A DNA stretch of 26,474 nucleotides from a virus, in the IMG/VR virus record IMGVR_UViG_3300032083_000243, positions 1-26,474 of that record. One strand, 5' to 3'. Position numbers and translations under genes: made by a program. The stretch's first letter is position 1. Each line of letters opens with the position of its first letter. Under the pieces are notes generated by a model, which was not told the origin of the DNA, did no database searches, and worked only from the letters and a program-made list of their open reading frames with translations. This document shows, piece after piece, positions 21,747 through 25,721 of this stretch.

Positions 21747-22580
21747 TTATTTAAGGCTCTTGTCTTCATTATATCTTTTATAAATATCTTCTGCAGCAGA
21801 GACTCTTTTATTTAATTGAGGTTTCCCAGGTCTTAAATAGTGGTCAGATGTAGCCTTTGCAGCTTCTACTAATGAATCAGTGTTTAAAATTTTATTTAAA
21901 GCACTTTTCTCTGTTGTATCAAACTCCTCTGAAATCATTGCCCAGTTACCTTCATAACTTTCTGGAGGTAAATCTCCAAGTTCTTTTAATAGACTTTCAA
22001 AATCATCTCTTCTATCTCCTGTCCATTGTGCAAAAGCTAGACCACCTTTAGATCCTTTAACGGTAGGTTTAAGTTCTTGCATAAATTTAAAACCACCTGT
22101 CTCATGCCAGAAATTACCGACAACTCCTGCAGCTTGTTCTGTAGTCATACCAAACTGTGACTTTAAATCTTCTATTAGTTTAAAAGAGGTATCGTATGCT
22201 TTGTCTAGGGTTACGCCAGAACTTTTAGAGAATGTAGATGTTTCCTCTAAATTACCAGTTACAGGGTCTTGTTCAATATCCATCTTTGCTTTAGATTCTT
22301 TAAACTCAGGAGATTCATTTTCACTAGCAAAAACTTCTCCTAGTATCTGCCCCCACCCACCTGCAAAAGCAAGCATAGTATTAGAATCATCCTTTGATTT
22401 ATTTTCAGAATCATTTTCTTTCTTCCTTGTAACAGGTTTTGCAATGTTTAAATCTACAGGAGGAGAGCCAAGAGCTTTTGATTGACGCTTTGTCCCAGGA
22501 TCACTTATACTTAACTCAGGATTACCCTGTTCAAGCATTATTCTTTTTCTTCTTCTATCTTGTGCTGTTGTTAAACTCAT
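21747..22580 (-). CDS. Virion-associated lysozyme (phage tail lysozyme domain)
   Basis: A 277-residue protein starting at 22580 behind AAGGAC. The first 120 residues are polar and probably disordered. Residues about 128-265 form a Phage_lysozyme2-type domain: FGMTTEQAAGVVGNFWHETGG (143-163) with E160 as likely catalytic acid, and GLAFAQWTGDRR (180-191), the family hallmark. It should cut peptidoglycan locally during DNA entry. Its place among the large proteins of the minus operon, rather than in a lysis cassette, fits an entry role. Lysis use cannot be excluded because no other endolysin lies in the window. Confidence 0.88.
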   Translation of the reverse strand: MSLTTAQDRRRKRIMLEQGNPELSISDPGTKRQSKALGSPPVDLNIAKPVTRKKENDSENKSKDDSNTMLAFAGGWGQILGEVFASENESPEFKESKAKMDIEQDPVTGNLEETSTFSKSSGVTLDKAYDTSFKLIEDLKSQFGMTTEQAAGVVGNFWHETGGFKFMQELKPTVKGSKGGLAFAQWTGDRRDDFESLLKELGDLPPESYEGNWAMISEEFDTTEKSALNKILNTDSLVEAAKATSDHYLRPGKPQLNKRVSAAEDIYKRYNEDKSLK

Positions 22581-22597: not shown

Positions 22598-25456
22598 TTA
22601 AGTAAAAGGCAGAGCTTTTAAAAGTAACTCTCCGATAAAATTACCAGTTTGTTGTTTAGCCCCTATTTGAGCCTGTAACTCTGCAACATCTATCTCAGCA
22701 TCAGCAGCCATCTTTTGAAGTACAATACTGTTAGCCCTGTCAGCGTTACCCTCTGACACTTGGAAAGCCATAGACAATATATCTCTTTCTCTCTGCCATA
22801 TTGAGTCAAGGTTAGTAGATGTCAAAGCGTTTATAGTCTGAGCAAAAGCCATGTTACTTTCGTTCTGTGCAGAGGTGTTAAGTGTTGCTAAGTTCTGTCT
22901 CCACTGAGCGTTAGCCTGTGCTATCACCAAACCATTCTGTGCGTTAAACAAATCTCTTTGCTGTTGTATCTGTGAGTTAAACTCTCTCAGTGCGTTGACA
23001 CTGTTGACGTTAAACTGATCCATTGCATTTGTTTGGACAGCGTTAAACTGTGACGTTTGACCTGCTAGGTTAGCAAAGAACTGATCAGTTTGATTTTGGT
23101 TTGCTGCGTTGAATTGTTCAGCAGCGTTCTCTGCAGCCTGATCAGTAAACAAAGACTGTATGTTTTGTTGTGCTTTGAACACTTCTGTCTGTTGTCTGTT
23201 TGACAGGTTAGACATATCCATCTGTAAAAAGTTTTGAGCGTTCTGTACAGAAGCCTGTTGTCTGTTGGATAGGTTAGCCATATCTAGTTGAGATAGAGCA
23301 GCAGCTTCTGCCATAACCATAGACTGTCTATTAGACAGATTGTTTAACTCCATAGTGTTAGCTGCACGAGAATCCTCTAGAGCTATCTGTTGTTCAGCAG
23401 TAAAGTTCATGTTAGCTACGTCAGCAATTTTAGCTGCGTTCTGTACACGAGCCTGAAATGCTTGATCAAACTCTTGCCCTATAAACTGAGCACGTTGTTG
23501 TGCTGCAAGCATAGCACGTTGTTGTCTGTTAGACAAGTTCTGTGCTTCAAACTGAGCCTGTGTAGCAGCATCTATTTGTGCGATAGGTATTGCAGACTCC
23601 ATAGCAGCCTGAACAATAGCCTGTCCTGCTATAGAAGACGCACCAATACCTCTTGAGATCATAGCGTTGGTAGCTGCTCTCATAGCTCCTGAAGCCCAAG
23701 CAGGTGTGTTACCACCCTCGAACTGAGCCATCAATCCTTCTAGCTGACCCTGCACTGTAGCCTGTTTAGTAGGAGTAGCAGTCTCAGCTTCTACAGCTTC
23801 AGTAAAAGCCCTAGCAGTCTCAGCGTTAGCAGAACCAGAGATAATTTCACTCTCACCTGATACAGGATCTGTCTCTAGTTTTCTGGCTGTTGGTCCATCT
23901 ACTTTTATTTCTTTTCCTTGAGCCACTGGCCCACCAACAGATGTTTCAAGTTGCTGTTGTGCAGTTACTTCTTTTGTGAGTGTGTCTTGTTGAGCAGGTT
24001 GTAACGCACCAGTTACAGTTTGCACCTGTGGTGTTGCAAAGGCAGGATTCATAGCTGTTATGGGTGTAGCTAAAGGCATTGGTGCTTGCTGTGTTGTGCC
24101 TGTTGTAGCAGCTTCAGCAAACGGAGCTATAGGTACAGTCATACCTGCATCTACTGGTATAAACTCTGGAGCAGTAGGTTGTATTCCTGCTATTTGTGCT
24201 TGGATAGGCTGCATAGTCTGACCTACCAAGTTAGCACTCATTTGAGCTAGAGGATTAACAACAGCAGTAGTTTCACCAGTAACTTCTGTACCAACTGTAG
24301 GGTTATCTGTTGCAAGAGTACCTTGTTGAGCACCCATACGCATACCACCCATATTCATCATAGCTTGTCTGTACTTACCCATACGAGCAGCAGCAGCAGG
24401 GCTAGACTGTAAGAAGTTATCAAGCTGATCATCAGGTGCGTCTTCTGGAAAACCTAAAAACTTTTTAGCTAGTGTAACATCTCCACCTTCAAACATTGCT
24501 ATTGTAGAATAAGGGTAAGGAACGTTGTCAGGGTTTCTTGGTAATTTCACTTGTACGTTAGGATCACCTTGTGATTCAGGTGTAGGTGTTGTTTGTTGTG
24601 GGTTTGTACCCTCTTTAAAAAAACCAGGTGGCACGTTAGTAACAGGTTTACCGTTAAATTCAGTAATCATTATTGATTGATTTGTTTGTGGGTTTATGTA
24701 CCGAACTTGTTGATAACCTGAAGTAATCTGCTGACCTGATCCTGGAGCAGTAGTAACTAATGTTTGAGGAACTGCACCCTGAGTTCCTGCATAGTGGGTT
24801 TTATAAGATATCTGTTGAGGAACAGCAGACAATCCTGCAGTTTGTATAGGCGTAGAAAACGTTCCTGTTTTAGGTGCTTGTCCCATCACAAATGGTTGAG
24901 CTTGTGTAGTTTGTGTCACAGGAGTTTGATACGTAACAGGTGCTACTTGTTGTACAACAGTCTTAGGAGTATCTGGAATTATAGGAGCTACTTCGTCAGC
25001 TTGTAGTTCCAACACTTCTGTTGAAGGTGCAGTTGGTACAAAGCTACCACCTGCAACATCAGGATTAAAAGGATCTACAGGTACTACAGGTTCTACTACA
25101 GGCTCTACTACAGGCTCTACTACAGGCTCTACTACAGGCTCTACTACTTCTTCAGGTACTACAGGTTCTACTACAGGCTCTACTACAGGCTCTACTACAG
25201 GCTCTACTACAGGCTCTACTACTTCTTCAGGTTTTTCACCTTCTGCGTAAAAACCTTTTATATCCAAATAAGATCTAGCATCTTTTTCATCTTTAAAAAC
25301 GTATTGTCTTGAATTTTTTCTGCCAGTAGAACCAAGAACTGTTTTATTACTTAGTCTATCACCGTCAGCCGTTTCTAAATAAACCTTATTGCCGCTTTTA
25401 ACGATCTTGACCTCATCACCTTTGTCAACTTTAACTAAATCTTCGTTAATAGCCAT
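22598..25456 (-). CDS. Large virion protein with EPVV rod and 22-residue helical repeats (952 residues)
   Basis: Start at 25456 behind AAGGAGAAG. Parts: an N-terminal basic/acidic domain (1-75, containing QYVFKDEKDARSYLDIKGF); two blocks of five Glu-Pro-Val-Val tetrapeptides (81-100 and 106-125); a Pro/Gln/Thr-rich low-complexity region (about 130-500); and, from residue 640 to 925, thirteen consecutive 22-residue units, several opening with NLSNRQQ and others with an 11-residue QFN rhythm. The C-terminus (KALPFT) is short and hydrophobic. The repeats predict a long continuous helix or coiled coil. With the lysozyme, 170-, 309- and 1116-residue genes it forms what looks like an internal virion set. 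A tail or fibre protein is the alternative. Function inferred. Confidence 0.85.
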   Translation of the reverse strand: MAINEDLVKVDKGDEVKIVKSGNKVYLETADGDRLSNKTVLGSTGRKNSRQYVFKDEKDARSYLDIKGFYAEGEKPEEVVEPVVEPVVEPVVEPVVEPVVPEEVVEPVVEPVVEPVVEPVVEPVVPVDPFNPDVAGGSFVPTAPSTEVLELQADEVAPIIPDTPKTVVQQVAPVTYQTPVTQTTQAQPFVMGQAPKTGTFSTPIQTAGLSAVPQQISYKTHYAGTQGAVPQTLVTTAPGSGQQITSGYQQVRYINPQTNQSIMITEFNGKPVTNVPPGFFKEGTNPQQTTPTPESQGDPNVQVKLPRNPDNVPYPYSTIAMFEGGDVTLAKKFLGFPEDAPDDQLDNFLQSSPAAAARMGKYRQAMMNMGGMRMGAQQGTLATDNPTVGTEVTGETTAVVNPLAQMSANLVGQTMQPIQAQIAGIQPTAPEFIPVDAGMTVPIAPFAEAATTGTTQQAPMPLATPITAMNPAFATPQVQTVTGALQPAQQDTLTKEVTAQQQLETSVGGPVAQGKEIKVDGPTARKLETDPVSGESEIISGSANAETARAFTEAVEAETATPTKQATVQGQLEGLMAQFEGGNTPAWASGAMRAATNAMISRGIGASSIAGQAIVQAAMESAIPIAQIDAATQAQFEAQNLSNRQQRAMLAAQQRAQFIGQEFDQAFQARVQNAAKIADVANMNFTAEQQIALEDSRAANTMELNNLSNRQSMVMAEAAALSQLDMANLSNRQQASVQNAQNFLQMDMSNLSNRQQTEVFKAQQNIQSLFTDQAAENAAEQFNAANQNQTDQFFANLAGQTSQFNAVQTNAMDQFNVNSVNALREFNSQIQQQRDLFNAQNGLVIAQANAQWRQNLATLNTSAQNESNMAFAQTINALTSTNLDSIWQRERDILSMAFQVSEGNADRANSIVLQKMAADAEIDVAELQAQIGAKQQTGNFIGELLLKALPFT
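22682..23539 (-). repeat. Region coding thirteen 22-residue (2 x 11) repeats
   Basis: Residues 640-925 of the 952-residue protein divide without a single gap into thirteen units of exactly 22 residues. Units 1, 4, 5 and 6 start NLSNRQ; units 3 and 8-13 start N or F in the same phase. Within units 7-10 an 11-residue beat is plain (QFN, QFF, QFN, QFN, EFN, LFN). In DNA the strong copies share a TGTCTGTTAGACA-like core at 66-base spacing. Confidence 0.85.
25088..25228 (-). repeat. 12-bp tandem repeats in a duplicated 75-bp block (EPVV coding)
   Basis: Five copies of a 12-base unit (25088-25147; first unit AGGTTCTACTAC, then AGGCTCTACTAC) plus TTCTTC and AGGTACTAC are followed by a second identical set (25163-25222 plus TTCTTC 25223-25228), an offset of exactly 75 bases. 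Perfect identity of units indicates recent expansion. Confidence 0.95.
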
Positions 25457-25466
25457 TTACTTCTCC

Positions 25467-25721
25467 TTACTTACCCATTGTCATCCACACTGCACCTGCA
25501 ATAAACGTTAACAGTGCGACAGTGGCTAATTTAACTACAGTAGACCAGACAGATTTACGTGTGTCTCTCCAAGCCTCTAACAAACTTCTCATCTCTATAA
25601 TATCTCTGGCTGCAGCATCATCAAGTAACCCAATAGAACGTAGTGCTTCTTTAGCACCACGTCTAGCTGCGTTGTCTAGCATTTCCTCTAGATCGTCAGG
25701 GGTAAGTTTGATGTCACTCAT
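25467..25721 (-). CDS. DUF6127-like one-span membrane protein, holin candidate (84 residues)
   Basis: Start at 25721, overlapping the preceding gene by 8 bases. Residues 1-55 are an acidic, alanine- and arginine-rich helical head (TPDDLEEMLDNAARRGAKEA, then GLLDDAAARDIIEMRSLLEAW), and residues about 60-80 form one hydrophobic helix (VVKLATVALLTFIAGAVWMT) before a short tail. The head pattern matches the DUF6127 group of small phage proteins as I remember it. A single C-terminal span with a charged head is compatible with a holin or spanin-like role (compare T7 gp17.5), but neighbours are virion genes, so function is open. Confidence 0.75.
   Translation of the reverse strand: MSDIKLTPDDLEEMLDNAARRGAKEALRSIGLLDDAAARDIIEMRSLLEAWRDTRKSVWSTVVKLATVALLTFIAGAVWMTMGK

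Follow-up and report, generated by a model that had tools for sequence, protein, structure and literature searches.

We found that a ten-unit Glu-Pro-Val-Val (EPVV) tract in a 952-aa protein of a marine phage is probably a fast-changing minisatellite linker between an exchangeable N-terminal head and a conserved body, rather than a required stiff rod. The tract lies in the window, which is the whole stretch of DNA analysed here and itself a virus record of 26,474 bases. In the mechanism we propose, an in-frame minisatellite would encode an acidic, K/R-poor and probably disordered linker in a protein that is probably internal to the virion (an ejection protein), between its exchangeable head and its conserved body. 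Its units would arise, spread and be replaced via slippage or unequal recombination, so that the site remains repetitive as the unit changes, and the job of the linker would be to space the head from the body. The positions of the relevant features are given in Table 1.

Table 1. Features of the 952-aa protein gene and its neighbours, in window coordinates
Feature	Position	Strand	Description
Host ORF, 952 aa	22598..25456	(-)	Orthologues in HMO-2011-type morphogenesis modules; function unannotated
N-terminal head, residues 1-75	25232..25456	(-)	Two predicted beta strands, then a helix; replaceable cassette
75-bp block 1	25157-25231	(-)	Residues 76-100, PEEVV + (EPVV)5
75-bp block 2	25082-25156	(-)	Residues 101-125; identical repeat of the block 1 sequence
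Post-linker conserved segment, residues 134-215	24812..25057	(-)	Motif on which relatives were aligned
Second short-repeat site	24578..24592	(-)	TTPTP, two TP units; 19 TP units in L202
Hendecad-periodic long helices, residues ~609-905	22742..23632	(-)	From autocorrelation and a low-confidence model
Upstream neighbour, 84 aa, DUF6127	25467..25721	(-)	PF19622, E 5e-22; conserved flank of the head cassette
Downstream neighbour, tail-type lysozyme	21747..22580	(-)	PF18013 Phage_lysozyme2, E 2e-21

The ten EPVV units are arranged as five plus five with a PEEVV in between, and together they span positions 25082-25216 (residues 81-125). The original prediction had described ten such tetrapeptides in a duplicated 75-bp block, and this is what the DNA contains; it had placed them at 25088-25228, where the array is indeed found but with ends that are off by 6 and 12 bases. 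It had also called the coding units perfectly repeated 12-mers, a description that fits 8 of the 10 units, coded by GAGCCTGTAGTA, but not the closing unit of either block, where the remaining 2 units read GAACCTGTAGTA with GAA instead of GAG. The two blocks are equal at 75 of 75 positions, and because of this identity the duplication looks recent, which bears out the proposed recent expansion. The longest exact self-match at a shift of 75 is 80 bp, and TRF reports a period of 75 with 2.1 copies, 98% match and a score of 311 for the region. Codon use from residue 75 to residue 128 is uniform, with GTA for all 25 valines and CCT for all 13 prolines, while it is mixed elsewhere in the gene. Across 2000 shuffles of the protein, the EPVV count never exceeded 2, compared with 10 observed, and a chance origin of the array is excluded.

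We aligned relatives on the conserved motif that follows the array (residue 134 onward), with an alignment as the query in place of the post-linker segment as a single query, which found only 3 relatives. For the array count, 85 loci were collapsed to 56 distinct ones, the window among them. With the window excluded, 31 of 55 distinct relatives carry a tandem DNA array no more than 100 residues ahead of the motif (TRF score ≥ 50), and every period in these arrays is a multiple of 3; the other 24 of 55 have no array at a TRF score of 50. Across relatives the arrays are between 10 and 52 residues long, and the unit itself differs. Some units ahead of the motif bear proline (DPVV in L005, GDPV in L001, VDEVP in L006, EEPVLP in L047 and PEPPVPT in L003) or are of the TP type (TP in L202, PA/TP in L009 and L023), and others have no proline at all (NEGG in L002, DTTT in L070 and DTVE in L010). 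In a set of 18 genes that includes the window, 16 of 30 arrays with a TRF score ≥ 40 and 12 of 15 with a score ≥ 80 lie within 95 residues before the motif, a span that makes up 9.3% of gene length; the p-values for this set are only indicative, since the genes were picked by eye from the 46 with the segment (of 74), the 95-residue span was likewise chosen post hoc and the relatives are non-independent. Relatives thus retain a minisatellite at this site but with differing units, which warns against inferring function from a single repeat motif. The comparison also speaks against a required stiff rod, because the same site in relatives can be Gly/Asn-rich (NEGG), Thr/Asp-rich (DTTT, DTVE) or irregular.

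The residues at this site have a characteristic composition. Among 53 genes (the 56 minus 3 with cut N-termini), the 50-residue stretch ahead of the motif is richer in acidic residues than the rest of the protein (median 0.24 vs 0.10) and holds less K/R (0.04 vs 0.07) and fewer aromatics (0.02 vs 0.06). Proline in the same 50 residues ranges from 0 to 54%. In the 18-gene set, the linker has at least 20% proline in 9 of the 11 relatives with a core identity ≥ 83%; the exceptions, L002 and L004, are both among the four closest relatives and have no proline-rich linker. In the more distant L008, L204, L079, L068, L070 and L010, linker proline is below 10% in 6 of 6. It is possible that a composition preference for extended proline-rich linkers exists within the close lineage.

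The original prediction had compared the EPVV tract with the stiff part of TonB. If the protein were built in this way, EPVV would form a stretched-out, polyproline-like spacer, stiff enough for the head to bridge a distance such as the width of the periplasm while the genome is ejected. We consider this reading unlikely, and a required TonB-like rod is less likely than the fast-changing minisatellite linker. Part of the analogy is sound: the TonB linker is also an acidic proline-containing repeat that serves as an interdomain spacer, and its Glu-Pro and Lys-Pro stretches form polyproline II rods with some flexibility according to passages in PMC10771500. One real case of the same unit was found in Cocleimonas flava (L295:5778-6881), where a TonB-like protein with a TonB_C domain starts with a hydrophobic stretch, followed by (EPVV)20 and then by a region rich in Lys and Pro. 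The proline-rich linkers of most close relatives (9 of the 11 with the most similar cores), EEPVLP, PEPPVPT, TP and PA arrays among them, also favour a rod. However, the window protein has no TonB C-terminal domain (Pfam, E 0.1), and its linker corresponds to the acidic EPVV half only, with no Lys-Pro stretch following in the translation; EPVV itself is just 25% proline and 50% valine. Both unit and proline content differ among relatives of the window protein, unlike in the TonB linker, and a proline content below 10% in all 6 of the more distant relatives, as well as in the close L002 and L004, argues against a rod. So do the uneven array lengths and the split among the 31 array-bearing genes (window included), of which 12 have at least 20% linker proline and 12 have less than 10%. 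The AlphaFold2 model of the array region is coil, with a pLDDT of 33-42 for the blocks, values so low that they do not discriminate between disorder and a polyproline II rod.

EPVV arrays are also present outside this protein family. At least 119 viral stretches code for (EPVV)3, and 63 stretches from bacteria or archaea in the genome collection code for (EPVV)4, though these are mechanical ORFs, some of which are perhaps not genes. Ten (EPVV)4 proteins, hand-picked from the 63, were scanned; only one is a TonB, which further speaks against the rod, and the others comprise an SRP54-type GTPase, a DNA polymerase III gamma/tau, an ABC transporter, an IF-2, a PEP-CTERM protein and 4 proteins that matched no family. 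An EPVV-specific function was rejected on the basis of these counts and the different kinds of protein involved. EPVV is a recurrent linker unit and not a signature.

The repeat site can also differ between near-identical strains. L070 and L071 share 99.1% identity over 7,542 bases with 68 differing columns, and 35 of the 68 fall in the 200 nt before the motif, including 9 gap positions in the linker; of the remaining differences, 26 are downstream of the motif, 5 are elsewhere in the head and 2 are upstream of the gene. These two loci have 6 and 7 copies of DTTT, L005 and L061 have 1 and 2 copies of TPVPGDP, and the TP count at the second repeat site is 2 in the window and 19 in L202. L061 is itself unusual in that its gene is split over two frames, with stop-to-stop pieces of 721 aa and 334 aa, which is a frameshift or an assembly error. 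Variable repeat number had been expected from the identity of the DNA repeats, and this expectation holds for DTTT, TPVPGDP and TP; for EPVV itself, the comparison is limited to L084, which ends in block 2. Specifically, L084 differs from the window by 2 mismatches in 1344 bp, one of them within the repeat and 9 nt from the contig end. The contig end of L203 similarly falls in its TP repeat, and a search with the residues right after the array as the query found no other viral contig. As L084 and L203 both end inside arrays, where assemblies may stop, the exact number of ten is insecure.

These contig ends, together with the exact self-repeat of 80 bp at a shift of 75 and the mismatch close to the end of the otherwise near-identical L084, could point to an assembly artefact, in which the assembler created the second 75-bp block or created or collapsed the exact copy number. 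We regard such an artefact as very unlikely, given that the separately named contig L084 carries block 1 and the beginning of the second PEEVV unit, and that 31 of 55 distinct relatives also have an array at this site, so repeats at this position are real.

Next to the linker, the head is replaced between close relatives. Among 73 scanned loci, residues 1-75 of the window protein matched L202 (88%), L010 (72%) and, weakly, L079 (51% over 63 aa); a head-only search added L201, which is on the same contig as L084 (100%), and L203 (88%). L006, L002, L001 and L004 gave no head match, with a core that is 94-97% and an upstream gene that is 94-99% identical to those of the window. L006 and L002 specifically have an upstream gene of 98-99% identity and a core of 95-97% identity, and the window head is absent from both. 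For example, the window and L006 align at 96.2% identity over 1,011 bases up to a point 7 nt before the ATG, and the likeness restarts 54 nt before the motif in window coordinates. The window-type head is joined to other linkers elsewhere, namely (TP)n in L202, a DTVE-type linker in L010 and an irregular one in L079; in L079 the head is internal, with approximately 125 extra residues ahead of it.

The same pattern was observed across relatives. We selected 66 pairs from 1182 by requiring at least 85% upstream and at least 75% downstream identity, no read-through alignment and limits on length. In 62 of these 66 pairs, upstream similarity stops no more than 30 nt from the start codon, here the first in-frame ATG; by design, the script accepted only upstream matches whose end lay past a point 150 nt ahead of this codon. 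The downstream boundary in the 66 pairs is less well defined, with similarity returning a median of 8 nt ahead of the motif and an interquartile range of -56 to +167 nt, and 45 further pairs align uninterrupted across head and linker. At a core identity ≥ 80%, any N-terminal match was found in 198 of 467 pairs, or in 191 of 405 once the short versions and one fragment were left out, with matches to the post-linker segment counted in both figures. Judged by these alignments, N-terminal heads are swapped wholesale between relatives with flanks that are 94-99% conserved. The pair L237 and L244 differs in both heads and linkers, and its sequences match at 98.5% identity starting 28 nt ahead of the motif; this similarity resumes outside any shared repeat, and repeats therefore need not drive the exchange. 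A doubtful extension of the linker reading is that the heads would be interchangeable host- or defence-specific cargo delivered with the ejection protein and traded as start-codon-to-motif cassettes, with the linker as a tolerant joint through which any head could be fused to the conserved body, and perhaps as a recombination aid. With its conserved body and swappable head, the probable ejection protein would offer a defined place to seek host adaptation or injected effectors.

We then considered what the 952-aa protein may be. It has no PHROGs family and no Pfam family at E 0.1, and PDB sequence searches with the protein, as a single sequence or a profile, gave no match. Scanning a 40-sequence alignment (window included) returned DUF2680 in one member and phrog_10432 in one, and nothing else per library. 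The full AlphaFold2 model is weak (mean pLDDT 55), with long helices predicted in the body, and a fold search against the PDB with a model of this quality is a weak test that found nothing at E 0.001; against BFVD it yielded 3 hits of 46, 26 and 22% identity with uninformative names, which are probably relatives. The helix region (residues 609-905) shows autocorrelation above 0.13 solely at lags 11, 22, 33 and 44. The rod had been described as next to this hendecad helix, but the array stops at residue 125 and a gap of about 480 residues separates the two. The head model has a mean pLDDT of 71.8 and gave no Foldseek hit at E 0.001. Its best VIA-align rows are complex I subunit chains (Z 4.2, rmsd 2.4, 50 residues aligned), a predicted likeness that may be chance and is too weak for use.

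The body of the protein places the gene among known phages. Using tblastn, we found a relative in 27 phage records, the top nine being Roseobacter CRP phages and HMO-2011 (two records), and the CRP and HMO-2011 records annotate it as a hypothetical protein. Body identity to the 8 proteins compared from CRP phages and HMO-2011 is 55-77%. The neighbouring 84-aa gene, which is 79-99% identical in the 15 relatives with a core identity ≥ 80%, was found in 6 of these 8 phages, the exceptions being HMO-2011 and CRP-345. Beyond the lysozyme gene of the window lie ORFs of 170, 309 and 1116 aa; a very large downstream gene is present in 6 of the 8 fetched stretches and falls outside the view in those of CRP-207 and CRP-603. 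Gene order in CRP-2, CRP-9 and CRP-1 resembles that of the window. With an orthologous body and a similar gene order, the region is, by sequence comparison, an HMO-2011-type morphogenesis module. HMO-2011-type phages have a DNA polymerase with a partial DnaJ domain, as described in part of PMC9038755. The 653-aa polymerase of the window matches phage DNA polymerase PHROGs.

The gene cluster also resembles the ejection-protein cluster of T7-like phages as passages in PMC8954989 describe it. The gene shares with T7-like gp14/gp15/gp16 its location, which is at the end of the structural module and close to genes for a tail-type lysozyme and a very large protein, and its product shares long predicted helices; unlike these proteins, it is 952 aa long with a variable head. 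With hhalign, the body profile gave probabilities of at most 0.4 against 10 single T7/P-SSP7 sequences, a comparison of low sensitivity with single-sequence targets, from which T7 gp16 was left out and in which two P-SSP7 labels were assigned by position; three distant orthologues scored 99.9-100 against the same profile. From synteny, the 952-aa protein is probably an internal virion (ejection) protein. By analogy only, a probable internal protein that is diverse among close relatives recalls T4 Ip1-Ip3, which are injected and diverse among T-even phages according to passages in PMC12373910. Each of those is a small protein in its own right that carries an N-terminal packaging signal, whereas in the window protein the variation lies in an N-terminal head that belongs to the same polypeptide as a conserved body. 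The open-licence literature searched yielded no account of repeat variation in the 952-aa protein, and the gene is not treated in the relevant passages of PMC9038755, PMC8528129, PMC6918029, PMC8954989, PMC10771500, PMC10666116 and PMC12373910.

By body sequence and gene position, the hypothetical proteins HMO-2011 gp25 and CRP-2 gp49 are orthologues of the window protein. CRP-2 gp49 differs in having another head and no array at a TRF score of 40, and HMO-2011 gp25 differs in being short (706 aa). Short versions of 606-707 aa, that of HMO-2011 included, were also found in L028, L041, L050, L052, L074-L077, L205 and L208-L210, and they apparently have no long head.
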